Of a DNA stretch of 64,000 bases, positions 12,907-50,044 are shown in pieces. The notes under the pieces were generated by a model. The model was given only the letters and a program-made list of their open reading frames with translations. It was not told the origin of the DNA and did not search any database. A program made the translations under genes and the position numbers. Origin of the DNA: Brachybacterium avium (lineage in GTDB: Bacteria; Actinomycetota; Actinomycetes; Actinomycetales; Dermabacteraceae); the NCBI RefSeq assembly GCF_002216795.1, contig NZ_CP022316.1, positions 2,819,205 through 2,883,204 on the forward strand. The letters run 5' to 3'. The first letter of the stretch is position 1. Each line of letters begins with the position of its first letter.

Positions 12907-13802
12907 TCACTGCTCCGTCGACTCCTCGATGTCCGAGGTGCCGTCCGGCGCCGGGGGCCGAGGCCCCCGGGTGTACGCGAGATCCCATATTAGGCGTCCT
13001 GCGGCGCGACCCTTGCTCTCGAAACCGGTCTTCACACGACCCTCGAATCGGGGCGCCCAGCCGGTGGCCGCCATATCCGGGGGGATCGCGTCCGAGGAGC
13101 GGCCCTGCGGGCGTGGACCGCTGGGATGCAGCAGGGTCAGCTCGGGCCGCGCATCCAGCTGGGAGCGCATGTGATGGGCGTACTGCGCCCAGTCCGTGGC
13201 CAGGCGGAACACCGCTCCCTCAGCGAGCAGCGGCAGCACCGCGTCCAGGAACGGAGGATTGATCAGCCGGCGCTTGTGGTGGCGCTGCTTGGGCCAGGGA
13301 TCGGCGAAGTACACCCACAGCTCGTCGATGGAGCCCTCGGGCAGCATCGCCGGCAGCGCCCCCTGGGCGTCCAGGGGCAGCATCCTGAGGTTGTCGGGGC
13401 TCCCGCACCGCTCCACGCGGCTGAGGGTCTGCGCGAGACCGGGAAGGTACACCTCGACGCCGAGATGATCGCGCTCCGGGTGCTCGAGGGCGGCGGCGAC
13501 GATGTTCTCGCCGGTGCCGCTGCCCACCTCGACCACCAGCTCGGCGCGGCGACCGAAGATCTCGGCGGGCTCCAGCCGAGTGCCCGCGGCGGGCAAGGTG
13601 TCGCGATGGCCCCGCGGCGGGTCGATCACGTAGCGGGGGAGAGGCGGTCCCACGCCTTCTGCCTGCCCTGCGAGAGGCGCTCTCCGCGGCGGACGAAGGA
13701 GACGACGTCACGGTGCGTGCCCTGCTTCCGCCTGTTCCTTTCCGGGCCGGCGGGCGCGGAGGTGTCGACGCCCGTGTCACGGGCGTGAGGATCCGTGGTC
13801 AT
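12907..13802 (-). pseudogene. trmB: tRNA (guanine-N7-)-methyltransferase TrmB, frameshifted as read
   Basis: An SAM-dependent enzyme that methylates G46 in the tRNA variable loop. The N-terminal part (start 13802, reading THRDVVSFVRRGERL and KAWDRLSP) is in one frame. The rest (RYVIDPPRG, VEVGSGTGENI, the FADPWPKQRHHKRRL motif) is in another. One C missing from the run of five at 13635-13639 (coding CTCTCCCCCGC) would restore DRLSPRYVID and a 298-residue protein. Both halves are well conserved, so I suspect a sequencing deletion. If the shift is real, only a 248-residue fragment from 13653 could be made. The gene starts seven bases after the Rieske gene. Confidence 0.8.
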
Positions 13803-14862: not shown

Positions 14863-16025
14863 GCGGGGGGTTCTCCTGTGCTCGATGGGCCGGACCGGTC
14901 CTCGGTGGATGCTGAGTCGCTGGTGAGGCGGTGACGGGTGGGCGGGTTCACCGCGAGCGGATTGCGGGCATCGACGATCCAGGGGCCGCGCGGCCGCCGC
15001 AGCGGCCGCCCGCTGCGTGCGGATCCGGCGACCAAGCGGCTCAGCTCCTCGTTCTCGGCGGCATCGGCCGCCAAGAAGTCCAAGGTGTGCGAGGCATGGG
15101 GCTCGAGCACGATATGGTCCCAGGCGTCCAGACCGCTGGCGATCTGCCGGGCGCGCAGGAACTCCGCGTCCAGGGCTGCGCCGGTGATCACCACGATGTT
15201 CGCCAGCCACAGCAGGATCAGGATCGCGATCAGCCCGTTGAGCGCGGTGAGGACCTCCGCGAACCGGGTCGCGTAGACCAGCAGCTGCCCGGCCACCAGC
15301 GCGGCACCGAACAGCACCAGCACGCTGAGCGTCGATCCGAGCGTCATCAGCCGGTACCGGGGCAGGCGCACATTGGGGAACAGGTAGTAGGCCAGGGAGA
15401 CCCCGATGATGAGGATCACCAGGAGGATCGGCCACTTCACGAAGTTCCAGGCCGCGAAGGCGATCTGGGGGATCCCGATGAACTCACCGATGCGCTGCGA
15501 GGCCTCGCTCCCCATGATGATCATGCCGGCCGCCAGCAGGACCACCGAGATGATCAGCACCGTCTCGCCGAACACGATGGTGCGGAACCACAGGAACGGG
15601 CGACCCTCCCGAGTGTCGAAGACCCGGTGGAGGGCGCGGTGGAACGCGGCGACCCCATTGGAGGCGGACAGCAGGGACCCGGCCGTGCCCAGCAGCAGGC
15701 CGAGCACGCCGCCGCTGGTGCTGGAGACCGCCTCGATCGCCCGGAGGAAGGGTCGGGGATCCAGGGTCGGGAAGATCTCGGTGATCAGCTTGGAAAGGGC
15801 CCGGAGCGTGTCCACCTCGACCCCGATCAGCGACATCACCGAGACCGCGGCGACAGCCCCGGGGAACAGCGACAGCAGCAGGTAGAAGGTCATGGTCCCC
15901 GCCACATCCCACACCTGGATGTCCAGCAGCCGCATCCGCACCCGGTTCAGGACGTGCAGGACGCTCAGCCGGGGTCGGGCGATCTCGACCGTCGGCCTCG
16001 GCCGACGCGGGCGGGATGCTGTCAC
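14859..16025 (-). CDS. YihY/BrkB family inner-membrane protein
   Basis: A 388-residue protein with about six membrane helices in the YihY pattern, including the conserved GTMTFYLLLSLFPGAVAAVS at the first helix and GTAGSLLSASNGVAAFHRAL. The family is widespread and once was wrongly called ribonuclease BN; its physiological role is unclear. The C-terminal 100 residues are polar and cytoplasmic. The GTG start at 16025 has GGAGA eight bases upstream. Translation is coupled to def. Confidence 0.88.
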   Translation of the reverse strand: MTASRPRRPRPTVEIARPRLSVLHVLNRVRMRLLDIQVWDVAGTMTFYLLLSLFPGAVAAVSVMSLIGVEVDTLRALSKLITEIFPTLDPRPFLRAIEAVSSTSGGVLGLLLGTAGSLLSASNGVAAFHRALHRVFDTREGRPFLWFRTIVFGETVLIISVVLLAAGMIIMGSEASQRIGEFIGIPQIAFAAWNFVKWPILLVILIIGVSLAYYLFPNVRLPRYRLMTLGSTLSVLVLFGAALVAGQLLVYATRFAEVLTALNGLIAILILLWLANIVVITGAALDAEFLRARQIASGLDAWDHIVLEPHASHTLDFLAADAAENEELSRLVAGSARSGRPLRRPRGPWIVDARNPLAVNPPTRHRLTSDSASTEDRSGPSSTGEPPA

Positions 16026-19540: not shown

Positions 19541-20199
19541 ATGACTGTCACGGAGTCGTTGCCCGTGGTGGACGCGGTGCGACGTTCGCTCGAGATCCAC
19601 GAGCAGGTCCCCGAGCGGCCCGGCCGGGTGCAGGTGATCTTCACCCTGACCGCGAACTTCGCCTGCGCTCCAGCCCGCCTGTGGCCCTTGCTCACCAGGC
19701 CCCGCGAGCTCGCGCACTGGTTCGGTCCGGTCAGCGGCGAGCTGCGCGAGGGTGGTTGCTTCGAGGCACCCGGAGGTGCTGGCGGCCGCATCCTCCAGGT
19801 GCAGGAGCCGCACCGGCTCGGATTGACCTGGGGGCGGGCGGCGGGGAGGACCCGTTGCTGCTCCGGCTCGATCCGGAGGACGACGGCACCACGCTGCTGA
19901 TGCTGCGCCACAGCGCGATGCTCGACGCCGAGGATTTCGCGCGCACCGGCCCGGGCGCGCTCGCCCTGGGTTGGGAGATCGCGCTGCTCGCACTGGCTGC
20001 GCACACCGACGGCTGGCAGGCCACCTGCCTGGCACCGATCCCGGTGCCGACGCCCCACTGGCTGCACGGGCCGCAGGGCGCGAGGCATGTCCGAGCCTGG
20101 TCGGTCCGCTGGGCGGCGGAGGCCGTCGCGGCCGGGGTCGAGGAGCGCACCGCTCGACAGGGCGAGAGCGAGACCGTCCGGCGCTACCTCGAGCACTGA
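19541..20199 (+). pseudogene. SRPBCC (AHSA1-like) domain protein, frameshifted as read
   Basis: The N-terminal frame begins at ATG 19541 behind GAGGAG and shows an SRPBCC fold signature (FACAPARLWPLLTRPRELAH, WFGPVSGEL). It goes out of frame after RLGLTWG. The other frame resumes with GGGEDPLLLRLDPEDDGTT and runs to 20199. Adding one G to the run of five at 19830-19834 gives LTWGAGGGEDPLLL and a 219-residue protein. SRPBCC proteins bind hydrophobic ligands; the specific role is unknown. A sequencing deletion is the simplest explanation. Confidence 0.75.
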
Positions 20200-33758: not shown

Positions 33759-35095
<1,337 letters not shown>

Positions 35096-35099
<4 letters not shown>

Positions 35100-35452
35100 C
35101 GCTCGCGGACGCGACCGATTCCGAGCAGCGCGCACAGAACGTGGAACGGGCCAGGCAGCTGCTGGCGGAGGAGCGCCGCAGCATCGACAACATCGATGCT
35201 GCGCTGGTCCATCTGCTCGCCGAGCGCTTCTCCCACACACAGCGGGTCGGCCAGCTCAAGGCCGCGCACGGACTCCCGCCAGCGGATCAGTCGCGCGAGC
35301 AGGAGCAGATCGCCCATCTGAGGGAGCTGGCTGACCAGGCCGGGCTGGATCCCACCTTCGCCGAGGCTTTCCTGCGCTTCATCGTCACCGAGGTGATCCG
35401 CCATCACGAGCGGATCCGCGACGGCGGTGACGAGGAGGCGAACCGCAGCTGA
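35096..35452 (+). CDS. Chorismate mutase (AroQ type)
   Basis: A 118-residue all-helical enzyme of the AroQ class that converts chorismate to prephenate for phenylalanine and tyrosine. The pattern [40 protein letters not shown], described here in parts, has the Arg and Lys of the active site (ERF..R..QLK and R288-like REQEQI). It starts within the clpX stop codon, so it is translationally coupled. Small stand-alone mutases of actinobacteria can depend on DAHP synthase for full activity. Confidence 0.88.
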
Positions 35453-35505: not shown

Positions 35506-38500
35506 ATGGCACGCCTCACGTTCCTCGACTGGCCGGTGATCCGGCAGCTTCGCGGGGCGGATCCGACCGGACGCGGCACCGCGGTCACGTCGGCGACGAC
35601 CCGCGACATCGTCCCGCGCACCGTCACTGCCGACGGGGTGGCGGACAGCATCTGCCCGTACTGCGCCGTCGGCTGCGGGCAACGGGTCTTCCACAAGGAC
35701 GGGCGGGTCATCCAGATCGAGGGGAACCCGGACTCCCCGGTGTCCCGCGGCCGTCTGTGCCCCAAGGGGGCGGCGAGCCAACAGCTGGCGAACTCTTATC
35801 TGCGGCAGACGAAGGTGCGCTACCGGCGTCCCTACGCGACCCAGTGGGAGGATCTCGAGCTGGACGTCGCGATGGACATGATCGCTGACCGGTTCATCGA
35901 AGCTCGCCGTGCGCACTGGGAGGACGAGGACGAGCAGGGGCGCCCGCTCAAGCGCGCGATGGGGATCGCCAGCCTCGGCGGCGCCACCATCGACAACGAG
36001 GAGAACTATCTGATCAAGAAGTTCTTCACCGCTGCGGGTGCGATACAGATCGAGAACCAGGCGCGCATTTGACACTCCGCCACGGTTCCCGGTCTGGGAG
36101 CCTCGTTCGGGCGTGGCGGTGCCACGCAGTCGGTGCAGGACTTCGCCAATGCAGACCTCATCGTCATCGAGGGCTCGAACATGGCAGAAGCCCATCCGGT
36201 GGCCTACCAATGGGTGGTCGAGGCCAGGAAGCGCGGTGCCCGGGTCATCCACGTCGATCCTCGCTTCACGCGCACCTCGGCGAACACTGATCGCCACATC
36301 CCGATCCGCGCCGGCACCGACATCGTGCTGCTCGGCGGGGTGATCAGGCATGTGCTCGACAACGAGCTGTTCTTCAAGGAATACGTCCAGGCGTTCACCA
36401 ACGCCTCGACGATCATCTCCGAGCAGTACGCGGATCCCGAGGACCTCGACGGGCTGTTCTCCGGCTACGACCCGGAGACCAGCACCTACGACAACAGCAG
36501 ATGGGCGTATGCGGGAGACCCGGAGAGGCTCGCAAGGGGACTGCCGGAGCGGGACGAGACCCTGCAGCATCCGCGCAGCGTCTTCCAGATCCTGAAGCGC
36601 CACTATGCCCGGTACACCCCGCAGATGGTCCAGGACACCTGCGGCATCTCCCCAGAGGACTTCTCCTACCTGGCGACCGCCATCGCCGAGAACTCCGGAC
36701 GGGAGAGGACCACGGCCTTCGCCTACGCGCTGGGCTGGACCCAGCATCAGGGCGGGGCGCAGATGATCCGCACCGCCGGGGTGCTGCAGTTGCTGATGGG
36801 CAATATGGGCCGTCCCGGCGGCGGGATCATGGCCCTGCGCGGGCACGCCACCATCCAGGGCTCCACGGACATCCCCACGCTGTACCACATCCTGCCCGGC
36901 TACCTGCCGATGCCGAAGGTGGGGCAGGACGACTTCGCCGAGTTCACCCGGGCGATCGGCAAGAAGGAGCAGAAGGGCTTCTGGGCCGATGCGGATGTTT
37001 ACACCGTCAACCTGCTCAAGGCCTGGTGGGGAGAGCATGCGACAGCGGAGAACGACTGGGGATATCACTACCTGCCCAAGCTGACCGGTGCCCACGGCAC
37101 CTACCAGACCACGATGCGGATGCTCGAGGGAGGGGTCGACGGGTACTTCCTGTTCGGGCAGAACCCGGCCGTGGGCTCGGCCAACGGCCGCCTCCAGCGC
37201 CTGGCCATGTCGAAGCTGAAGTGGATGGTGGTGCGCGACTTCTACATGATCGAGTCCGCCACCTTCTGGCGTGACGGCCCCGAGATCGAGTCCGGAGAGC
37301 TCACCCCGGAACAGATCGCGACCGAGATGTTCTACCTGCCGGCCGCGAACCACACTGAGAAGGCCGGGTCCTTCACCCAGACCCAGCGCATGGTGCAGTG
37401 GCGCGACCAGGCCGTCGAACCGCCGGGCGACGCCCGGAGCGACCTGGAGTTCATGCACGAGCTCGGTAAGCGGATCCGGGAGAAGCTCCGGGATTCCACC
37501 GACCCGCGCGACCGACCGATCCTGGAACTGACCTGGGACTATCCCGTGGGTGAACACGGTGAACCGGATGCCGAAGCGGTGCTCGCCGAGATCAACGGTC
37601 GGCATCTGGAGGGCGAACGGGCGGGACAGCCGCTGTCTTCCTTCGGCGAGATGAAGGGCGACGGCTCCACCGACGGCGGATGCTGGATCTATTCCGGTGT
37701 CTTCGCGGACGGCATCAACCAGGCCCGGCGCCGCACGCCCGGTCAGGACCAGGACGAGACCGCCGCCGACTGGGGATGGGCCTGGCCGGCCAACCGCCGG
37801 ATCCTCTACAACCGGGCCTCTGCCGATCCCCAGGGCCGGCCCTGGAGCGAGCGGAAGAAGCTGGTGTGGTGGGATGAGGAGGCCGGGGCCTGGACCGGCC
37901 ACGACGTCCCCGACTTCCCGCTGACCAAGCGTCCGGACGATCCCGGTGATCCGAGCGGGGGCGGGGCGGCAGCGCTCGCGGGGACGGATGCGTTCATCAT
38001 GCAGGCCGACGGCCGCGGCTGGCTGTTCACCCCCACCGGTCTGGTGGACGGGCCGCTGCCGACGCACTACGAGTCGCCGGAGTCGAACATCCCCAACCCG
38101 CTGTACACGCAGCAGTCCAACCCCACCCGGGTCACCTTCCGCAGCCCGGAGAACCTCAGCTCCCCGGGCGCCTCGAGCCGCGGCGGCGAGGTGTACCCGT
38201 ACATCTTCACCACGTATCGGATCACTGAGCACCACACGGCCGGGGGATGAGTCGCTTCCTGCCCTATCTCTCCGAGCTGCAGCCGGAGATGTACTGCGAG
38301 GTCTCGCCGGAACTGGCCGAGGAGGTGGGCCTGGAGCCCTACGGCTGGGCGACGCTCATCTCGGCACGCAGCGCGATCGAGGCCAAGGTGCTGGTCACCG
38401 AGCGGATGAAGCCGTTGCGCGTCGGCGAGCGCACCGTCCACCAGATCGGGCTGCCGTTCCACTGGGGGCGCGGCACCGAGGCCCTCGTCCAAGGGGACGG

Positions 38501-38801
38501 GGCCAACGACCTGATCGGTATGAACCTCGATGCCAACACCCAGATCCAGAACAGCAAGAACAACTCGTGCACGATCATCCCGGGGCGCCGCCCGCGGGGC
38601 CCGGAGCGCGGCGAGCTGGTGGAGGCATACCGTCGACGGGCCGGTCTGATCGAGGCCGAGCACCCGGCGGTCGACGGGGCTGCGGGCGCTCCCGGCGCCG
38701 GTCCTGCCGACTCCTCGACGCCGCATCACGTGCGCGGCCCGGACGAGGCCCAGGCGGTCCCCACCGGCGAGCCCTCGATGAAGGAGATGAGGAACCGATG
38801 A
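35506..38801 (+). pseudogene. fdh: Formate dehydrogenase alpha subunit, selenoprotein (in-frame TGA = Sec189), frameshifted near its C-terminus as read
   Basis: Molybdopterin (bis-MGD) oxidoreductase that oxidises formate to CO2. The [4Fe-4S] motif CPYCAVGC gives Cys50, Cys53 and Cys57, and a fourth Cys lies in RLCPKG. The frame reaches TGA at 36070-36072 after IENQARI and continues HSATVPGLGASFGRGG, where FdnG-type enzymes carry selenocysteine. A SECIS hairpin follows. The MopB core runs to YRITEHHTAGG; the molybdopterin-binding C-terminal domain (MSRFLPYLSELQPEMYCEVS) is then shifted by one. A sixth G in 38242-38246 joins them into 1098 residues. No Tat signal is seen, so the active site probably faces the cytoplasm. 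Confidence 0.9.
36070..36119 (+). promoter_or_regulatory. SECIS element and selenocysteine codon
   Basis: Directly 3' of the UGA (36070-36072) a hairpin forms. The lower stem is CCGCCAC (36077-36083) with GTGGCGG (36113-36119), and the upper stem is GGTTCCC (36084-36090) with GGGAGCC (36096-36102). The loop GGTCT (36091-36095) starts 18 bases after the UGA. The loop sequence and the distance are like the E. coli fdhF SECIS, which SelB recognises. Confidence 0.85.
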
Positions 38802-39799
38802 GCCTGCTCTCAGGACCTGCCGGTCCCGCGGCGGATTCCGGCTGGGGCCATGACCACGAGCGCAAGGGATTCTTCACCGACACCTCGATCTGCATCGGCT
38901 GCAAGGCGTGCGAGGTGGCGTGCAAGGAGTGGAACCGCAACCCGATCGACGGCAATCTGGAGATCCTCGGGTCCAGCTACGACAACACCGGGGAGCTCGG
39001 GGCGAACACCTGGCGCCATGTGGCCTTCGTCGAACAGGGTCAGGAGCGGATCGAGGAGGCGCGCGAATCGGGTCGGAAGCTGGTCAGCCTCGGCATGCCC
39101 GGGATCGGGCCGAAGACCTCGGGACCACGCGGTGCGACGCCCGCAGGCGATCTCTCGACCGCGGACCGCACGCCCCCGGACACCCCCGAGTTCCGCTGGT
39201 TGATGTCCTCGGACGTGTGCAAGCACTGCACCAACGCCGGCTGCCTGGACGTGTGCCCGACCGGGGCGATCTTCCGCTCCGAGCACGGCTCCGTGGTGGT
39301 CCAGGAGGACGTCTGCAACGGCTGCGGCACCTGCGTGAGCGCCTGCCCGTTCGGCGTCATCGAGCGGCGTGACGACGGCACCGTCTCACCGCACGCGAAT
39401 CGGGACGAGAAGATCGACCGGATGGGCACTGCGAGCAAGTGCACCATGTGCCACGACCGTCTGGTCGACGGCGAGCAGCCCGCCTGCTCCGCGACCTGCC
39501 CCACCCAGTCGATCACCTTCGGCGAGCACCCGGACCTCACCGCTGATGCGCGGCGCCGGGTCGCCGACCTCCACGAGCAGGGCATGACCGAGGCCCGCCT
39601 GTACGGAGCGAACCCGAAGGACGGCGTGGGCGGCACCGGCTCGCTGTTCCTGCTGCTGGACGAGCCCGAGGTCTATGGTCTCCCGCCGGATCCGCAGGTC
39701 CCCACCGCATCACTGCCGGCGAGCTATGCGAAGGTCGGCCTCGCGGCGGCCGGCATGGTGGCAGCGGCCGCGCTCTCGTTCCTGGGCGGTCGCCGATGA
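38798..39799 (+). CDS. Formate dehydrogenase beta (iron-sulfur) subunit
   Basis: A 333-residue ferredoxin-like subunit that carries electrons from the alpha subunit to the membrane subunit. Four cysteine groups (CIGCKACEVACKEWN, CKHCTNAGCLDVCP, CNGCGTCVSACPFG, CTMCHDRLVDGEQPAC) can hold four [4Fe-4S] clusters, as in FdnH. A C-terminal hydrophobic helix (VGLAAAGMVAAAALSFLG) anchors it to the membrane. The ATG at 38798 overlaps the alpha stop (ATGA) and its own stop overlaps the NrfD gene. Confidence 0.92.
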   Translation: MSLLSGPAGPAADSGWGHDHERKGFFTDTSICIGCKACEVACKEWNRNPIDGNLEILGSSYDNTGELGANTWRHVAFVEQGQERIEEARESGRKLVSLGMPGIGPKTSGPRGATPAGDLSTADRTPPDTPEFRWLMSSDVCKHCTNAGCLDVCPTGAIFRSEHGSVVVQEDVCNGCGTCVSACPFGVIERRDDGTVSPHANRDEKIDRMGTASKCTMCHDRLVDGEQPACSATCPTQSITFGEHPDLTADARRRVADLHEQGMTEARLYGANPKDGVGGTGSLFLLLDEPEVYGLPPDPQVPTASLPASYAKVGLAAAGMVAAAALSFLGGRR

Positions 39800-40911
39800 G
39801 CATCAGCGAGTTCGATGCTGACCGGCCGCCGCAGTCACCGCGCCGGCGCCGCCGAGGAGGCGGCCGTCGACGCCGCAGCCTCACCGAGGTCGGTATGGGG
39901 GACGGCTCCAGGGAGGGGGCCGTCGTCGAGGACGTCGAGATCCAGCGTGCGGGGGAGTTCGACTCGTACTACGGCCGCCCCATCGTCAAGGCGCCGCCGT
40001 GGCGCGAGCCGATCGCCATCTATCTCTTCCTGGGCGGAGTGGCGGGCGGCTCCGGACTGCTCGCCTTCGGGGCGCAGTGCACCGGGCGCCCGCTGCTGCG
40101 TCGCAACTCCCGCCTGCTGGCGCTCGGCGCGGTGGGAGCGGGCACGGTCGCCCTGATCGAGGATCTCGGCCGGCCCGAACGATTCCTCAACATGATGCGC
40201 ACCGTGAAGGTGACCTCCCCGATGAGCCTGGGGAGCTGGATCCTGGGCGGCTTCGCGACCTTCTCCGGGGTCCTCGCCGCGCTCGAGGTGGATCGTATGA
40301 CGGGGCGGAGGCTGCCGCTGGGGATCCTGCGCCGGCTCCTGGACACCGCGGAAGGACCGGCCTCGCTGGGCCAGGTCGTGCTGGCGCCGCTGCTGGCCTC
40401 GTACACGGGAGCGCTGCTGGGCAACACCGTGGTCCCGACCTGGGAGGCCGGTCGGGACCATCTCTCCTACCTCTTCGTCTCCTCGGCGGGCCTGGCAGCG
40501 GGCGGCGGCGCCATGCTCACCAGCCCGGTCGCCGAGACCCGGCCCGCGCGGCTGCTGGCGACCGCGGGCGTGGTGGGCGATGTGGTCTCCATGCGCCGCA
40601 TGAAGCAGTCGATGCATCCGCTCGAGGCGGAACCCCTGGAGACCGGCAGGGCGGGAGCGCTGCTGACCTGGGCCGAGCGCCTCGCGATCGCCGGCGGCAT
40701 CGGCGCCGTGCTCGGCGGCCGGAACCGCTACGTCGCCGCGGCCAGCGGCGCCGCGCTGCTGGCCTCCTCTGCGCTGACCCGCTTCGGGGTGCTGTACGCG
40801 GGGCTGGAGTCCGTCAAGGATCCGCGGCGGGTCGTCGAACCGCAGAAGGAACGGCTGGCGGCGCGACGCGCCGCAGGCATCACCGACGACTCGATCACCA
40901 CCGGCGGCTGA
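39796..40911 (+). CDS. NrfD/PsrC-type membrane subunit of formate dehydrogenase
   Basis: A 371-residue integral membrane protein with eight or more helices, starting within the beta-subunit stop codon. It resembles NrfD/PsrC quinone-interacting subunits rather than the cytochrome b556 FdnI. Landmarks are PIAIYLFLGGVAGGSGLL, EDLGRPERFLNMMR and SPMSLGSWILGGF. It likely passes electrons from formate to the quinone pool without haem. The N-terminal 65 residues are basic and polar. It ends 13 bases from the convergent selD gene. Confidence 0.87.
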   Translation: MSISEFDADRPPQSPRRRRRGGGRRRRSLTEVGMGDGSREGAVVEDVEIQRAGEFDSYYGRPIVKAPPWREPIAIYLFLGGVAGGSGLLAFGAQCTGRPLLRRNSRLLALGAVGAGTVALIEDLGRPERFLNMMRTVKVTSPMSLGSWILGGFATFSGVLAALEVDRMTGRRLPLGILRRLLDTAEGPASLGQVVLAPLLASYTGALLGNTVVPTWEAGRDHLSYLFVSSAGLAAGGGAMLTSPVAETRPARLLATAGVVGDVVSMRRMKQSMHPLEAEPLETGRAGALLTWAERLAIAGGIGAVLGGRNRYVAAASGAALLASSALTRFGVLYAGLESVKDPRRVVEPQKERLAARRAAGITDDSITTGG

Positions 40912-40924
40912 GACCGGCCCGCGC

Positions 40925-41944
40925 TCAGCGCACCGTGAGGCCTGTGCCCTCCACCGTCTCGCCGATGATCGGATAGCCGGGGATCTCGCCGATCACCAGC
41001 AGCCCGCCGGAGGTCTGGGCGTCCGCCAGCAGCAGCAGGTCCTCCTCGGTGACGCCGGCGCCGGTGCGCAGGTGCTGCCGGACCCAGTCCAGGTTGCGCC
41101 GGGTGCCGCCGGAGACGAAGCCGTCGCGCAGCGCCTCGGCAGCACCGTCGATCAGCGGGACAGCGGTGCGGTCGATGACCATCCCCACCTCGGAGGCGCG
41201 GCCCATCTTGAACAGGTGCCCGAGCAGTCCGAAGCCGGTGACATCGGTCGCGGCCCTCACCCCCGCGGCCCGCGCGGCCCGGGAGGCATCGCGGTTCAGA
41301 GCGGTCATGGTCTCGATCGCCGCGGCGGAGACCTCCCCGGTGGACGTCATCCGGTTGTTCAGCAGCCCCACCCCGAGCGGTTTGGTCAGGGTGATCGGCA
41401 GACCCGCCACAGCGGCATCGTTGCGCAGCAGATGGTCCGGATGCGCGGTACCCGTGACCGCCATGCCGTACTTCGGCTCCGGATCATCGACCGAGTGCCC
41501 GCCGATCACCGGCACCCCGGCTTCCTGCGCGATCGCCAGCCCGCCCGCGAGGACCTCCTGCAGCAGCTCGTAGGAGAGCACCCCGCGGGGCCAGCCCACC
41601 AGGTTGATCGCCACCACCGGGTCCCCGCCCATGGCATAGATATCCGACAGGGCATTGGCGGCGGCGATGCGGCCCCAGTCGAAGGCATCATCGACCACCG
41701 GGGTGAAGAAGTCCGCGGTCGAGAGCACCGCGGTCGCCCCGTCGGGCCCGCCGATCCGCACCGCGGCCGCGTCGTCGCCGTCCTCCAGCCCCACGATCAC
41801 CTGGTCGTACTGCTGCCCGGAGAGCGCCGAGACCACGTCCTCGAGCTCGCCGGGCGGGATCTTCGACGCACAGCCGCCGCCGTGCGCCATCGTGGTCAGA
41901 CGGATCGAGGGCCGGGCCGCGGGACGGATCGGATGCGCGCTCAT
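40925..41944 (-). CDS. selD: Selenide, water dikinase (selenophosphate synthetase)
   Basis: A 339-residue enzyme that makes selenophosphate from selenide and ATP, the selenium donor for Sec-tRNA. The glycine-rich N-terminal loop HGGGCASK holds the catalytic Cys25 and Lys28 (here Cys, not Sec). The ATP-binding segments ANALSDIYAMGGDPV and GGHSVDDPEPKYG, and the ATDVTGFGLLGH motif, are intact. A TAGGCT hexamer six bases before the ATG at 41944 indicates a leaderless transcript. It diverges from selC and converges with the fdh operon. Confidence 0.94.
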   Translation of the reverse strand: MSAHPIRPAARPSIRLTTMAHGGGCASKIPPGELEDVVSALSGQQYDQVIVGLEDGDDAAAVRIGGPDGATAVLSTADFFTPVVDDAFDWGRIAAANALSDIYAMGGDPVVAINLVGWPRGVLSYELLQEVLAGGLAIAQEAGVPVIGGHSVDDPEPKYGMAVTGTAHPDHLLRNDAAVAGLPITLTKPLGVGLLNNRMTSTGEVSAAAIETMTALNRDASRAARAAGVRAATDVTGFGLLGHLFKMGRASEVGMVIDRTAVPLIDGAAEALRDGFVSGGTRRNLDWVRQHLRTGAGVTEEDLLLLADAQTSGGLLVIGEIPGYPIIGETVEGTGLTVR

Positions 41945-42006
41945 GCCCCGAGCCTATGGCGTCCGACCAGCCCGTGCGGAGCGAATCATGGCCGATCCCA
42001 CGGTGA

Positions 42007-42019
42007 TAGCTTGGGCGGC
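42007..42019 (+). promoter_or_regulatory. -10 element of selC
   Basis: TAGCTT at 42007-42012 ends seven bases before the first base of the tRNA. Transcription may therefore start at the mature 5' end of tRNA-Sec with no leader. No good -35 is seen. Confidence 0.45.
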
Positions 42020-42114
42020 GGAGGCGTACGTGTCCTGGTGGGCGCCCCGGTCTTCAAAACCGGTGAGACCGAGCACCTCGGTCTGGCGGGTTCGATTCCC
42101 GTCCGCCTCCGCCA
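42020..42114 (+). tRNA. selC: tRNA-Sec (anticodon TCA)
   Basis: A 95-base tRNA including an encoded CCA, the same length as E. coli tRNA-Sec. It has the eight-position acceptor GGAGGCGT/CCGCCTCC (pair 8 is a T-C mismatch), the anticodon stem CCGGT/ACCGG with loop CTTCAAA, and a long variable arm with a perfect eight-base stem AGACCGAG/CTCGGTCT. The T arm is GCGGG/CCCGT with loop TTCGATT. The UCA anticodon reads the UGA of fdh. It lies between selD and selA. Confidence 0.94.
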
Positions 42115-42170
42115 CGCCCTCATCACCCGTATGCGGGTGGTGCCCGCCCGTCGGCCCTCGAGGAGGTCCC

Positions 42171-43564
42171 GTGCCCGAGACGCCCGTGCCCGAGGGTCCC
42201 GCGGCCGGGACCGATGCGCCCGAGGATCCGGCGCACGGTGCGACGGGCGCGGACCCGCGCCGCCGCATCCCCCGCACCGACCACCTGCTGGCCCTCCCGG
42301 CGGTCGCGGCCGCGAGCCGCACCATGAGCGGGCGCGTGGTGCTCGGCATCGTGCGCGCCGTGCAGGGTCGGGCCCGGTCCGGAGAGATCACTCCGGAGCA
42401 GGTGCAGGACGAGGTCTTCGCCGCCCTCGGGGACCGCCCCGCCGGGTCCCTGCGGCCGGTCCTGAATGCCACCGGCGTCCTCATCCACACCAACCTCGGA
42501 CGGGCCCCGCTGTCCCGGCCGCTCGGGAGGCGCTGCAGGATGCTGCCGGATACACGGATGTCGAGTTCGATCTGGCCACCGGTGCGCGGGCGAGGCGCGG
42601 CGCCGGCGCACGGGCCGCGCTGCTCGCGGCCTGTCCCGAGGCCGAGGACGCACTGGTCGTCACCAACGGCGCCGCGGCCCTGCTGCTGGCCACCACCGCG
42701 CTCGCCGGCACCGGCGAGGTGGTGCTCAGCCGCGGCGAGATGATCGAGATCGGCGCCGGATTCCGCCTGCCGGATCTCATCACCTCCACCGGGGCCCGAC
42801 TGCGCGAGGTCGGCACCACCAACCGCACCCACCTGTCCGACTACACCGATGCCCTCGGCCCCGAGACCGGCTGCGTGCTGCGCATCCACACCAGCAACTA
42901 CCGCATCATCGGATTCACCAGCGAGGTCCCCCTCACCGAGCTCGCCGGGCCCTGCCGGGACGCGAACGTCCCGCTGATCGCGGACCTCGGCAGCGGGCTG
43001 CTCGCGCCCGAGCCCCGGCTGCCGGACGAGCCCGACGTCGCCACCGCCCTGCGCGACGGCGCGGACGTCGTCGTCGTCAGCGGCGACAAGCTCCTGGGCG
43101 GCCCCCAGGCGGGGATCCTGCTGGGCCGGGCCGACGTCATCGCCCGCCTCGCCCGCCACCCGCTGGCGCGGGCGGTGCGCGCCGACAAGCTCGCCCTCGC
43201 CGCGCTCGAGGCGACCCTGGACGGCCCGGCCCCGCCCGTGCTCGAGGCGCTGCGCACCGACCCGGACGCCCTGCGGGAGCGCACCGCCCGCCTCGCCGCT
43301 GAGCTCGACGGCACCGTGGTCCCGCACGACGGCCGCGTCGGCGGCGGGGGAGGCGCCGAGGTGCCCCTGCCCGGATGGGCGATCTCCCTCGAGGCCGAGC
43401 TCGCCGGCCCGCTGCGCACCGGGGACCCGGCCCTCGTCACGACCGTGCACGGCGGGCAGTGCCTGCTCGACCTGCGCTGCCTGCCTGCCGAAGACGACGA
43501 GCGCGTGGCCCGTGCGGTCGCCGCCGCCCGCTCCCGGACCGCCGGCGAGGTCGACCCGCGATGA
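42171..43564 (+). pseudogene. selA: L-seryl-tRNA(Sec) selenium transferase SelA, frameshifted as read
   Basis: PLP enzyme that converts Ser-tRNA(Sec) to Sec-tRNA(Sec) with selenophosphate. The N-terminal frame starts at GTG 42171 behind GAGGAGG and reads RRRIPRTDHLLALPAV to RPVLNATGVLIHTNLGRAPLS. It then loses frame; the other frame reads AREALQDAAGYTDVEFDLAT and continues through the PLP lysine in VVSGDKLLGGPQAGILLG to 43564. One extra C in the CCC at 42514-42516 restores LSPAAREALQ and 464 residues. Both parts are well conserved and the other sel genes look intact, so a sequencing deletion is likely. The stop overlaps selB. Confidence 0.88.
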
Positions 43565-45348
43565 GGCAGGTCATCGCCACGGCCGGTCACGTCGACCACG
43601 GCAAGTCCACCCTGATCCGCGCCCTCACCGGCAGCGACCCGGACCGCTGGGCCGAGGAGAAGCGTCGCGGGCTGACCCTCGACCTCGGCTTCGCCTGGAC
43701 CACCCTGGCATCGGGCGACGAGGTGTCCTTCGTCGACGTCCCCGGCCACGAGCGCTTCCTCGGCAACATGCTCGCCGGCCTCGGCCCGGCCCCGATCGTG
43801 TGCTTCGTCGTGGCGGCCGACGAGGGCTGGCAGGCGCAGTCCTGCGACCACCGCGATGCGATCGCCGCGCTCGGCATCGACCGGGGCCTGCTCGTCGTCA
43901 CCCGGGCGGACCTCGCTCCCGACCGGGTCGGGGAGGTCCTGGCCCAGGCCCGTACCGAGCTCGCCGGGACCGGCCTCGCCGCAGCTCCCGCCGTGGCCGT
44001 CTCCGCGCTCACCGGAGCGGGGATCGAGGAGCTGCGCCGCGTGCTGGGCACCGTGGTCGCCGCCGCCCACGAGCCGGCCCCGGAGGAGCGCGTGCGCCTG
44101 TGGGTGGACCGCTCCTTCAGTATCTCCGGGGCGGGGACCATCGTCACCGGCACCCTCAGCGGCGGCACCCTCCGGGTGGGGCAGACGCTCGAGCGGACGG
44201 GCGAGGGTCCGGCGCGACGGGTCCAGGTGCGCGGCCTGCAGTCGCGCGAGGAGACGGTGGAGCAGCTCGGTCCCGTCAGCCGCGCCGCCGTGAACCTCCG
44301 CGGCGTGGACGCGGACTCGGTGTCCCGCGGCGATGCGCTGCTCAGCCTCGGCGCCTGGACGATGACGGCCCTGCTGGACGTGCGGGCGACGGCGCGGGGT
44401 GCGTTCGCCGAGGCGCCCGCACAGCTCGTCGTCCACGCCGGGACCGCTGCGGTGCCCGCCCGGGTCCGGCCGCTGGGGCCCGACCACGCCCGGCTCGCCC
44501 TCGACCGCTCGCTGCCGCTGCGCGTCGGCGATCGGATGGTGCTGCGCGGCAGCGGCGACCGGGTCGTCCGCACCGGCGCCCTCGTGCTCGACGTCGACCC
44601 GCCCGCACTCACCCGGCGTGGCGACGCGGCCCGACGGTCCGCCGCGCTCGCCGCGTCCAGCGAGACCGGCGACCTCGCCGCCGAGGTGGCGCGGCGCGGT
44701 GCGGTGCCCGCCGCACAGCTGAGCCGATACGGGGTCCCCGTGCCCGAGATGCTGCCTGCCGGCGTGCTCCGGTCCGGGACGCTGCTGGTCGCCGAGGCCG
44801 CGCACACCGCCTGGTCCGCACAGCTGCGCCAGGTGGTCACCGCCGAGCACGAGCAGCATCCGCTCTCCGCGGGGCTGGCCCGCAAAGCGGCCCTCGACGT
44901 GCTCGGCACCCACCCGGAGCTCCTGCCCGAGCTGATCGATCGTGCCGGCCTGATCGAACAGGACGGACGGATCCTGGACCCGCGACGCTCCACGGGGCTC
45001 GGAGCGGCCGAGACCGCGACCGCCTCCCTCGAGCAGCGCCTGCGCGGCGATCCCTTCGCAGCCCCGGAGGCGGATGGCCTGACCGCGCTGGGCCTCGGCC
45101 CGGAACAGCTCGCCGCCGCAGCCCGGCAGGGCCGTCTGCTGCGCCTGCCGGGCGAGGTGATCCTGCTGCCCACCGCCCCGGCGCTCGCCATGCGGGAGCT
45201 GGCCCGGCTCGAGCAGCCCTTCACCACCTCCCAGGCGCGGCAGGCGCTCGGCACCAGCCGCCGGGTCGCGATCCCGCTGCTCGAGCACCTCGACGCCCGC
45301 GGCTGGACCCGTCGGATCGATGCCGGTCATCGTCAGGTGGTGCGCTGA
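43561..45348 (+). CDS. selB: Selenocysteine-specific translation elongation factor
   Basis: A 595-residue GTPase that carries Sec-tRNA to the ribosome and binds the SECIS hairpin. The G1 motif is GHVDHGKST (9-17), G3 is DVPGHERF, and the G4 position reads TRADL. EF-Tu-like beta-barrel domains follow to about residue 360 (RVRLWVDRSFSISGAGTIVTG). The C-terminal third holds the winged-helix repeats that recognise the SECIS. The switch region KRRGLTLDLGFAW is typical of SelB. The ATG overlaps the selA stop (ATGA). Confidence 0.93.
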   Translation: MRQVIATAGHVDHGKSTLIRALTGSDPDRWAEEKRRGLTLDLGFAWTTLASGDEVSFVDVPGHERFLGNMLAGLGPAPIVCFVVAADEGWQAQSCDHRDAIAALGIDRGLLVVTRADLAPDRVGEVLAQARTELAGTGLAAAPAVAVSALTGAGIEELRRVLGTVVAAAHEPAPEERVRLWVDRSFSISGAGTIVTGTLSGGTLRVGQTLERTGEGPARRVQVRGLQSREETVEQLGPVSRAAVNLRGVDADSVSRGDALLSLGAWTMTALLDVRATARGAFAEAPAQLVVHAGTAAVPARVRPLGPDHARLALDRSLPLRVGDRMVLRGSGDRVVRTGALVLDVDPPALTRRGDAARRSAALAASSETGDLAAEVARRGAVPAAQLSRYGVPVPEMLPAGVLRSGTLLVAEAAHTAWSAQLRQVVTAEHEQHPLSAGLARKAALDVLGTHPELLPELIDRAGLIEQDGRILDPRRSTGLGAAETATASLEQRLRGDPFAAPEADGLTALGLGPEQLAAAARQGRLLRLPGEVILLPTAPALAMRELARLEQPFTTSQARQALGTSRRVAIPLLEHLDARGWTRRIDAGHRQVVR

Positions 45349-47246: not shown

Positions 47247-49913
47247 TCAGCCCTTGCTGCGCGGCTGCTTGACCGGCGGCTCGCCGAGCTCGACGTCGCG
47301 GGTGAGGATCTCCTCGCCCTCCCCGACGACCAGCTCGAGCTGCTCGATCCGGCCCAGCGCCGTGAGATCCGCGGCGGCGGCCTCGAGATGGGCGAGCGCC
47401 TGCTGCGGCGCCTCGATCCTCACGCTCAGGATCGGGGTCTTCTGGGAGACCTTGGCGTCGGACTTGAGGCGTCGCAGCGTGATCGCGGCCTGGGCCACCG
47501 TGTCCACGAGCGCCGCGTCCTGACCGGCGGCGGCCTCACGCAGCGGTGCCGCCTGCGGCCAGGCCTGCGTGTGCACGCTGCCCTCGCGCCACCACGACCA
47601 GACCTCCTCGGTCGCGAACACGACCACCGGTGCGAACAGGCGCAGCAGCACCTCGAGCGCGATCGCGAGCGCGGCGCGGGCCGAGGCGGCCCCGGCCTCG
47701 CCGGCGGGGGAGTTGCCGTGGGCTCGCTCCTTGACCAGCTCGATGTAGTCATCGCAGAACGCCCAGAAGAACGGCTCGACCGCCTCCAGGCTGCGGGCGT
47801 AGTCCATGTCCTCGAAAGCGGTCGTGGCCTGCTCGACGACCTGGGCCAGCTGTGCCAGCAGCGCCCGGTCCAGCGGATCGGTGACCACTGCCGGGTCCGC
47901 GGCGAGACGTCCCGCCGGATCGGCGGGGGCGGCGCCGAAGCCGAGGGCGAACTTCGAGGCGTTGAGGATCTTGATCGCCAGGCGGCGGCCGATCTTCATC
48001 TGCCCCTCGTCGAAGGCGGTGTCCACACCCTGGCGGGCGCGACCGGCCCAGTAGCGCACCCCGTCCGAGCCGTGCTGCTGCAGCAGCCCGATGGGGGTGA
48101 CCACGTTGCCCTTGGACTTGGACATCTTCTTGCGGTCCGGGTCCAGGATCCAGCCGTTGATCGAGGCGTGCTTCCACGGCAGCGAATCCTGCTGCAGGTG
48201 GGAGCGCACGATGGTGGAGAACAGCCAGGTGCGGATGATGTCGTGGCCCTGCGGGCGCAGATCCATCGGGTAGACCTTGCTGAAGAGCTCAGGATCCGAG
48301 TTCCAGCCGCCCGCGAGCTGCGGGGTCAGCGAGGACGTGGCCCAGGTATCGAGGATGTCGGGATCGGCGATGAAGCCGCCCGGCTGGTTGCGCTGGGCCT
48401 CGGTGAAACCGGCCGGCACGTCGGTGGTGGGATCGATCGGCAGCGCCTCGATCGGTGGGGTGAGCACGGTGTCGTAGTCGGTCTCGCCGTCGGCGTCGAC
48501 CGCGTACCAGAGTGGGAAGGGCACGCCGTAGAAGCGCTGGCGGGAGATCAGCCAGTCGCCGGTCAGGCCCTCCACCCAGTTTCGGTAGCGGGACTCCATG
48601 TAGGCGGGATGCCAGGTCAGCTCCGCGCCACGGGCGATCAGCTCATCGCGCAGACCGCCCTCGGAGGTGTCCCGGCCGCCGTTGGTGAGGTACCACTGAC
48701 GCGAGGTGACGAACTCCAGCGGCTTGTCGCCGTTCTCGTAGAACTTCACCGGATGCGTGATCCTCTCCGGCTCGCCCACCAGGTCGCCGGACTCGGTGAC
48801 CATCTCCACCACGCGCTTCTGCGCGCTGAACACGGTGAGCCCCGCGAGCTCCGCGTAGCGGGCCCGGCCCTCCTCGGAGGTGATCCAGGGCGCCTCGGGC
48901 AGGAAGCGGCCGTCACGGCCCACCACCGAGCGGGTGGGCAGCGAGAGCTCCCGCCACCAGGTGACATCGTTGGAGTCACCGAAGGTGCAGATCATCGCGA
49001 TGCCCGCGCCCTTGTCGGGCTGGGCGAGGGGATGCGCCAGCACCGGCACCTCGACCCCGAACAGGGGCGAGGTGACGGTCGAGCCGAACAGGCTCTGGTA
49101 CCGCTCGTCATCGGGATGGGCCACCAAGGCCACGCACGCCGGCAGCAGCTCGGGGCGTGTGGTCTCGATGTGCACCGTCTCCCCGGTGTCGTCGGTGCGG
49201 GTGAAGCCGATCCGGTGGTAGGCGGCCTCCCGCTCGCGGTCCTCCTGCTCGGCCTGTGCCACCGCGGTGCGGTAGGTGACGTCCCACATGGTGGGGGCCT
49301 CGGACTGGTAGGCCTGGCCCTGCTGCAGGTTCTCGAGGAACGCGCGCTGGGAGGTGGCACGGGAGGCGGCGTTGATCGTCTGGTAGCTGTGATCCCAGTC
49401 CACCGAGAGGCCGAGGGCGCGGAACACGTCCTCGAAGGACTTCTCGTCCAGCGCGGTGAGCTGCTCGCACAGCTCGATGAAGTTGCGGCGCGAGATCGGC
49501 AGCTGGTTCGCGGCCTTCGCCGACTTGTTCGAGCCGCCCTCCTGCGGGGGAGTGAAGTCCTCCTCGTAGGGCAGCGAGGGGTCGCAGCGCACCCCGTAGT
49601 AGTTCTGGGCGCGACGCTCGGTGGGCAGGCCGTTGTCGTCCCAGCCCAGCGGGTAGAACACGTTCTTGCCGCGCATGCGCTGATAGCGCACGATCATGTC
49701 CGCCTGGGAGTAGCCGAACACGTGGCCCACGTGCAGCGAGCCCGAGGCGGTGGGCGGCGGGGTGTCGACGCTGAAGACCTGGTCACGAGTGGTCTCCGGG
49801 TCGAAGGAGTAGAGGTCCTGCTCGCTCCATACGCTGTCCCACTTCTCCTCGAGGCCCTCGAGGGAGGGACGATCGGGGAGGGCGGAGTCGGGGCGCGGCG
49901 CAGTATCGGTCAT
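47247..49913 (-). CDS. valS: Valine--tRNA ligase
   Basis: An 888-residue class Ia aminoacyl-tRNA synthetase. The HIGH-type motif is seen in TPPPTASGSLHVGHVFGY and KMSKS in RKKMSKSKGN. The editing domain lies in between (HIETTRPELLPACVALVAHP). A C-terminal helical arm with a coiled coil ends the protein. The ATG at 49913 lies seven bases after AACAAT, with TTGCAC 16 bases further upstream, a leaderless arrangement; the ATG at 49922 adds three residues and is the alternative. Confidence 0.93.
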   Translation of the reverse strand: MTDTAPRPDSALPDRPSLEGLEEKWDSVWSEQDLYSFDPETTRDQVFSVDTPPPTASGSLHVGHVFGYSQADMIVRYQRMRGKNVFYPLGWDDNGLPTERRAQNYYGVRCDPSLPYEEDFTPPQEGGSNKSAKAANQLPISRRNFIELCEQLTALDEKSFEDVFRALGLSVDWDHSYQTINAASRATSQRAFLENLQQGQAYQSEAPTMWDVTYRTAVAQAEQEDREREAAYHRIGFTRTDDTGETVHIETTRPELLPACVALVAHPDDERYQSLFGSTVTSPLFGVEVPVLAHPLAQPDKGAGIAMICTFGDSNDVTWWRELSLPTRSVVGRDGRFLPEAPWITSEEGRARYAELAGLTVFSAQKRVVEMVTESGDLVGEPERITHPVKFYENGDKPLEFVTSRQWYLTNGGRDTSEGGLRDELIARGAELTWHPAYMESRYRNWVEGLTGDWLISRQRFYGVPFPLWYAVDADGETDYDTVLTPPIEALPIDPTTDVPAGFTEAQRNQPGGFIADPDILDTWATSSLTPQLAGGWNSDPELFSKVYPMDLRPQGHDIIRTWLFSTIVRSHLQQDSLPWKHASINGWILDPDRKKMSKSKGNVVTPIGLLQQHGSDGVRYWAGRARQGVDTAFDEGQMKIGRRLAIKILNASKFALGFGAAPADPAGRLAADPAVVTDPLDRALLAQLAQVVEQATTAFEDMDYARSLEAVEPFFWAFCDDYIELVKERAHGNSPAGEAGAASARAALAIALEVLLRLFAPVVVFATEEVWSWWREGSVHTQAWPQAAPLREAAAGQDAALVDTVAQAAITLRRLKSDAKVSQKTPILSVRIEAPQQALAHLEAAAADLTALGRIEQLELVVGEGEEILTRDVELGEPPVKQPRSKG

Positions 49914-50044
49914 GGGGGCCATTGTTCCAGGTCTGCCGCGACGTGCAACGCAGGCGACGACAGTGTGAGCGCCCTCGCTCAGAGCGCGGCCGTGCGGACC
50001 CGGTCACGAGACGGACGGGGCACCGGCAGCCGTACGGTGGAGTC

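Follow-up and report, generated by a model that had tools for sequence, protein, structure and literature searches.

Does the compact cluster of selenocysteine (Sec) genes in Brachybacterium avium represent a mobile block, a trait on its way out, or the usual place in which an actinobacterium keeps a Sec-dependent formate dehydrogenase? To answer this, we analysed a window of 64,000 nucleotides (contig NZ_CP022316.1, positions 2,819,205 to 2,883,204 of the forward strand) from an assembly of 3.57 Mb in 3 contigs, rated 100% complete. Within it, an island of 9.84 kb, from the fdhA start at 35506 to the selB end at 45348, carries a UGA-containing formate dehydrogenase gene, its partner subunits and the genes for Sec decoding. 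In all probability, this is a standard actinobacterial Sec/formate dehydrogenase locus encoding a three-subunit enzyme resembling formate dehydrogenase N (FDH-N), and the one-base deletions seen in it are most likely errors of the assembly. The parts of the island, in window positions, including the selenocysteine insertion sequence (SECIS), are as follows.

35506 to 38250, plus strand: main part of fdhA, encoding residues 1-914 of the Sec-containing formate dehydrogenase alpha subunit; a one-base deletion near 38243-38247 ends the frame prematurely
36070 to 36072, plus strand: in-frame UGA, codon 189 (Sec189), in the motif ENQARI-U-HSATVPG
36084 to 36102, plus strand: bacterial SECIS hairpin of 7-8 bp with a GGUCU or related loop, 11 bases past the UGA, called from covariation
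38247 to 38801, plus strand: C-terminal part of fdhA, molybdopterin-dinucleotide binding (PF01568), matching NF041513 from position 939; in another frame owing to the deletion
38798 to 39799, plus strand: fdhB, subunit of the 4Fe-4S ferredoxin type; its sequence shows a hydrophobic stretch at the C terminus
39796 to 40911, plus strand: nrfD-type membrane subunit (PF03916), presumably the quinone side
40925 to 41944, minus strand: selD, selenide water dikinase, read from its sequence as a Cys form that is not itself a selenoprotein
42020 to 42114, plus strand: tRNA-Sec with a UCA anticodon (ARAGORN; Rfam RF01852)
42171 to 43564, plus strand: selA in two frames, the N part from 42171 and the C part to 43564, with a one-base deletion near 42514-42517
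43561 to 45348, plus strand: selB, Sec-specific elongation factor with a C-terminal winged helix

The gene order is fdhA, fdhB and nrfD on the plus strand, selD on the minus strand, then tRNA-Sec, selA and selB on the plus strand. An earlier interpretation of this DNA made without database searches (hereafter the sequence-only reading) had placed the UGA-containing fdhA, fdhB and nrfD directly beside selD, tRNA-Sec, selA and selB, with all dedicated decoding parts inside 10 kb and 13 bases between the convergent blocks; coordinates, family matches and tRNA-Sec calls agree with this, including the 13-base gap between nrfD and selD (40912-40924). Its statement that the sel genes overlap holds for selA and selB, which share 4 bases (43561-43564), but not for tRNA-Sec, which overlaps neither neighbour, and it overlooked that fdhA and selA are each broken into two frames where a run of G or C has lost one base.

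Regarding family matches, the main part of fdhA scored 1594.7 bits against NF041513 (formate_DH_Act; cut-off 1400) and also exceeded the cut-off of TIGR01553, the FDH-N alpha equivalog, while the nearest solved structures by sequence were the formate dehydrogenases 1h0h and 1kqf. The naming of fdhB, which fell below the cut-off for the formate dehydrogenase beta subunit (TIGR01582, 166 versus 335), follows from its domains and its place. SelB, SelD and the C-terminal piece of SelA passed curated cut-offs, and tRNA-Sec, which has a single match in its own genome by DNA search, reached 80.9 bits with RF01852 against a gathering score of 47. The decoding set comprises intact selB, tRNA-Sec and selD, with selA present and split by its one-base deletion.

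The fdhA frame opened at 35506 contains one in-frame TGA only, at codon 189, just before HS at the known Sec position. UGA occupies this site in 78 of 81 FdhA rows (the window plus 80 loci), and the other three, all from Actinomyces, have a Cys codon. Covariation was directly observed in the hairpin that follows: in the 52 distinct rows among the 78 with Sec, all three third-position pairs change on both sides, the first being GC in 40, AU in 7 and unpaired in 5, the second UA in 45, CG in 4 and UG in 3, and the third CG in 49 and UA in 3. Moreover, the Val codon in the stem is GTT in 74 of the 78 Sec rows, and GTT makes up 2 of the 43 Val codons in the main fdhA part of the window, the stem codon included. 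The three Cys-codon Actinomyces rows (L068, L070, L074) have several SECIS pairs broken, and the flanks fetched with them yielded no sel gene in any of the three.

SelD produces selenophosphate, SelA converts seryl-tRNA-Sec into selenocysteyl-tRNA-Sec, and SelB carries the latter to the ribosome. In this context, SelB would bring selenocysteyl-tRNA-Sec to the ribosome at the fdhA UGA, guided by the hairpin at 36084-36102; FdhA with a molybdenum- or tungsten-pterin and Sec, FdhB with 4Fe-4S clusters and the NrfD-type membrane anchor would together form the FDH-N-like enzyme. We infer that this enzyme oxidises formate, and its electrons would be passed toward the quinone pool.

The sequence-only reading had suggested that formate oxidation is the reason for which this organism keeps Sec, and its strongest support is a directly observed co-occurrence, that is, a correlation. 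In a family sample of 47 genomes (38 Brachybacterium, including the one studied here, and nine others), UGA-FdhA and SelB were both found in 42 and both missing in five, and at the thresholds used neither ever occurred alone. Among the 38 Brachybacterium genomes, 37 had UGA-FdhA, 37 had SelB and 35 had a tRNA-Sec over the cut-off; one genome (G006, 99% complete) has none of the three, and two fragmented assemblies (G026 and G032, 88% and 84% complete) miss the tRNA-Sec match alone. Outside the genus, SelB and FdhA were both present in five of the nine genomes and both absent from four. FdhA and SelB share one contig in 33 of the 37 Brachybacterium carriers and span 9.7-13.8 kb there, a contig end truncating one of them; the remaining four carriers are assemblies of 410-750 contigs.

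In its own genome, FdhA (P0001) gave a single match at E values up to 1e-60. The search for other selenoproteins there covered three families and is no full census: PF00384 gave three proteins, with a TGA inside FdhA alone, and neither the seven PF00578 matches nor the two PF02627 matches contained an internal stop. FdhA is probably the only, or at least the maintaining, selenoprotein. With SelB and UGA-FdhA either both there or both missing throughout the 47 family genomes, this is a further clean example of a single enzyme bearing the cost of the 21st amino acid. As a separate observation, this genome encodes two more molybdopterin oxidoreductases (G000, C1:56338-58488 and C1:386578-388728) in frames of about 1300 residues with no stops; these are NarG-like by size only, and could be partners for a formate-driven nitrate respiration.

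The two frame breaks need explanation. The first fdhA part (P0001) aligns with NF041513 as far as position 938 and the second (P0002) from 939 onward, and because they match end to end, they are two parts of one protein; in all 78 loci, of 80, in which both parts could be placed, they form a single frame. In selA, the start at 42171 lies in a frame ending at 42743 and the conserved body in the frame ending at 43564; at the break, all nine aligned rows, some of them from one genome, hold one extra base, and the relatives in the selA motif list read through the site in one frame. An early frameshift scan was noisy, with many gene ends and antisense shadow frames, and was replaced by a search for isolated one-base indels against at least three of four relatives (42-58 kb aligned to each). 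This search found five private one-base deletions in the window, near 13632, 16505, 25813, 38243 and 42514, the first compared with three relatives and the others with four; the same four relatives had 0, 2, 0 and 0 private one-base indels. A sixth candidate near 19843, a one-base gap relative to two relatives, was left unconfirmed by the isolated-indel search and is not counted.

If the deletions were real, the Sec trait would be on its way out in this strain: SelA would run out of frame some 115 residues in and FdhA would end before its final cofactor-binding part, so that neither Sec nor a working formate dehydrogenase would be made. In favour of this, the two breaks belong to a single pathway, the assembly that shows them has 3 contigs and a completeness rating of 100%, and G006 does lack the entire block. 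Even so, we consider this loss improbable. Three of the five deletions (near 13632, 16505 and 25813) affect unrelated genes, for a methyltransferase (PF02390), a glycoside hydrolase of family 65 and an aminotransferase, and each of the five removes one base within or next to a short run of G or C; selB, selD and tRNA-Sec, like the UGA and the SECIS, are undamaged; and two of five deletions within an island that makes up about one sixth of the aligned stretch are no clear excess (binomial about 0.2). Long-read assemblies have been reported to contain systematic errors and errors that fragment genes (PMC8011154; PMC12007338), which would be relevant if such a platform was used here. Given that the relatives are intact and that like deletions hit three unrelated genes, all five deletions, the fdhA and selA ones included, most likely arose as errors of assembly, a judgement made from the assembled sequence. 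In practice, gene loss should not be concluded from an isolated frame break in this assembly.

The same data dispose of programmed frameshifting, by which translation would join the two pieces of fdhA, and likewise those of selA. Where the fdhA pieces meet, they share ATGA at a G run that resembles a slippery site, but the split is seen in none of the 78 loci read across it, and breaks of this type are also present in unrelated genes of the assembly; we rejected a programmed frameshift at the fdhA overlap, and the chance that it operates in either gene is negligible.

Some other assemblies show irregular matches as well. The Brachybacterium sp. Z12 loci (L013, L090) have a shortened SelA match and are missing from the selA motif list; G027, if it is the genome of that strain, has a valS match in two pieces and is perhaps another assembly with frame errors; and the valS matches of G015, G018 and G035 were reported with one TGA inside.

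In all, 80 named loci were fetched with FdhA, each with a right flank of up to 10 kb. The seven features keep the same order and orientation in 45 of them, which span Micrococcaceae, Brevibacteriaceae, Dermabacteraceae, Dermacoccaceae and Corynebacteriaceae, and the arrangement is therefore beyond chance. Of the other 35, 14 are cut by a contig end, nine show selD or selA before the fetched flank runs out, three are the Cys forms, in one (L079) a selB match lies upstream of fdhA, and eight are without a complete sel set in a full 10-kb right flank.

The sequence-only reading had also supposed that the block could move as a unit. Its surroundings, compared directly among the genomes, bear on this supposition and include the following genes.

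33759 to 35099, plus strand: clpX, left flank, fixed context in Brachybacterium
35096 to 35452, plus strand: chorismate mutase, left flank, fixed context in Brachybacterium
47247 to 49922, minus strand: valS, right flank, which with clpX and chorismate mutase frames the slot of the island

Upstream clpX and chorismate mutase were found in 22 of 23 Brachybacterium-like loci, the remaining one (L053) starting 532 bases before fdhA, and clpX was absent from the fetched flank of all other 57 loci. Likewise, SelB and valS lie less than 6 kb apart on one contig in 34 of the 37 Brachybacterium carriers, and in the other three they are on separate contigs of fragmented assemblies. Brachybacterium also forms a clade in both an FdhA tree (63 of 86 rows, 23 near-duplicate or cut rows having been dropped by hand) and a tree of the sel proteins (48 of the 51 rows holding all three, three dropped; with two long branches, Dermacoccus and Corynebacterium, as a warning), both made by a quick method with no bootstrap. 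Within Brachybacterium, then, the place of the island is fixed and its inheritance is mainly vertical.

At the scale of the family, the block seems to have been acquired, dropped or displaced as a whole. Its absence from an otherwise intact site is seen in G006, where clpX and chorismate mutase are followed by about 1.35 kb and then valS with no fdh or sel match between; the slot is not empty, since it holds other genes, a Phd/YefM-YoeB toxin-antitoxin pair and a methyltransferase (L117, 14760-15956). G006 groups with two island carriers in a midpoint-rooted ValS tree (Shimodaira-Hasegawa-like approximate likelihood ratio support of 95) and stands at the base of Brachybacterium with no resolution in the ClpX tree; from the ValS placement, block loss is favoured, not proven. 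Furthermore, four genomes of the Dermabacter group and one of another genus (G043) have the same order of protein genes in a place other than between clpX and valS. The distance between clpX and valS is about 0.5 kb in G038 and G040, 11.5-14.4 kb in G039, G041 and G043, and 0.7, 0.7, 4.9 and 9.7 kb in the four SelB-less family genomes outside the genus. As a side observation, about 10-14 kb of other DNA lies between the two genes in G041 (C1:1903123-1915104), G043 (C5:58458-72884) and G044 (C1:407244-416907), genomes in which the Sec block itself is elsewhere or absent.

The same gene order at different chromosomal places within one family, the missing block of G006 and the transfers of the Sec trait between actinobacterial genera catalogued in the text available for PMC5029168 could all be read as signs of a genomic island equipped for its own transfer. 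We regard this as very unlikely, considering the fixed place in Brachybacterium and the clade that the genus forms in both trees; in addition, no integrase, transposase or relaxase was recognised among the window genes identified by Pfam, many open reading frames, several of them flanking, being without a match or unscanned, and no tRNA lies at the borders of the island, the nearest ones outside it being located at 28.2-28.5 kb. The supposed movement as a unit is partly supported, by presence, absence and displacement of the block between genomes of the family; within Brachybacterium it keeps one place, and no mobility gene was recognised at its borders among the genes identified.

For the standard Sec/formate dehydrogenase locus that we favour, several results are unfavourable. 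Over 51 bases, the minimum free energy structure of the window's own sequence is a fold other than the SECIS, and its fold energy is not unusual, 21% of 2000 synonymous recodings being equal or lower; 8% of 20000 synonymous recodings retain all eight SECIS pairs, and one first/second-position pair is unpaired in 6 of the 52 rows. Single-sequence folding being uninformative, the SECIS call rests on covariation and codon bias. A second selenoprotein may also exist in this genome, as the search was limited to the three families. Besides, the compact fdh-sel layout is not universal: the full 10-kb right flank holds no complete sel set in seven Brevibacterium loci (L032, L033, L035, L040, L045, L049, L060) and in L080, selD not being seen in the fetched right flank of L032, L035, L049, L060 and L080. 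The sequence-only reading had named a close relative with scattered sel genes and other selenoproteins as one case that would speak against it, and the seven Brevibacterium loci come near to that case; the gene-order comparison it had proposed shows the block present or absent as a whole in relatives, but these loci depart from the pattern.

Finally, the fdh half has a history apart from that of the sel half in at least one and probably two species. Between Brachybacterium paraconglomeratum (L005) and B. squillarum (L006), the protein identity of fdhA, fdhB and nrfD is 94-98% and that of selD, selA and selB 66-73%; DNA identity is 92-99% from about 10000 to about 15200-15300 of the locus, and the flanking steps give 77 and 84% on the left and 83 and 77% on the right. 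A weaker case is B. alimentarium (L018), whose FdhA groups with L017 and L077 and whose sel proteins group with L053 and L011. From these differing identities and groupings, an exchange of the fdh half alone between species follows, and it also limits the idea of a block that moves only as a unit. The fdh and sel halves may differ in history, and caution is required when block transfer is inferred from one gene tree.

A bolder proposal would treat the interval between clpX-chorismate mutase and valS as a hot slot of Dermabacteraceae, occupied by the module in nearly all Brachybacterium, by the toxin-antitoxin pair and methyltransferase in G006 and by 5-14 kb of other DNA in some genomes of other genera, the module being placed elsewhere in Dermabacter. 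The module would be a two-part cassette, with gain and loss of the whole block and a freely exchangeable fdh half, this strain possibly being caught in mid-loss; we think it unlikely. In the standard locus that we prefer, the island sits in the chorismate mutase/valS slot in Brachybacterium and is present, absent or displaced as a block across the family.

A literature search combining Brachybacterium with selenocysteine, and Micrococcales with selenocysteine and formate dehydrogenase, returned no paper on this locus by title. The arrangement itself has precedents. According to one study, in alpha-, beta- and gamma-proteobacteria fdhA stands beside a selA-selB-selC operon as the sole selenoprotein gene, and its authors argue that transfer of the Sec trait requires clustering with a gene of this kind (PMC1794560). 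The likeness lies in the fdhA gene that adjoins selABC as the only selenoprotein gene. The differences are that those organisms are Proteobacteria and that in B. avium the cluster includes selD, encoded on the opposite strand, and keeps one place throughout the genus. Closer in lineage, the FDH1 cluster of Actinomycetospora chiangmaiensis is reported, in the accessible part of its description, to encode a Sec FdhA of 1078 residues, FdhB, FdhC, SelA (459 residues) and SelB (597 residues), and formate removal by this organism to be selenium-dependent (PMC7176365). Like the island studied here, it joins an actinobacterial Sec FdhA with SelA and SelB in one cluster, but it differs by a permease in the cluster, by a SelD located outside and by the three Sec formate dehydrogenases of the strain (PMC7176365).

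Indeed, fdhA beside selABC, fdhA as the sole selenoprotein gene and their joint transfer are all in print already, and for this reason the locus is a further case of a known actinobacterial pairing and of low surprise. At the level of the proteins, the two fdhA parts match NF041513 end to end, with the difference that here they are split over two frames. The membrane subunit of FDH-N is a cytochrome b. In comparison with that enzyme of Escherichia coli (FdnGHI, 1kqf), the FdhA of B. avium lies above the FDH-N alpha cut-off of TIGR01553, and its partner in the membrane is an NrfD-type anchor in place of the cytochrome b subunit.

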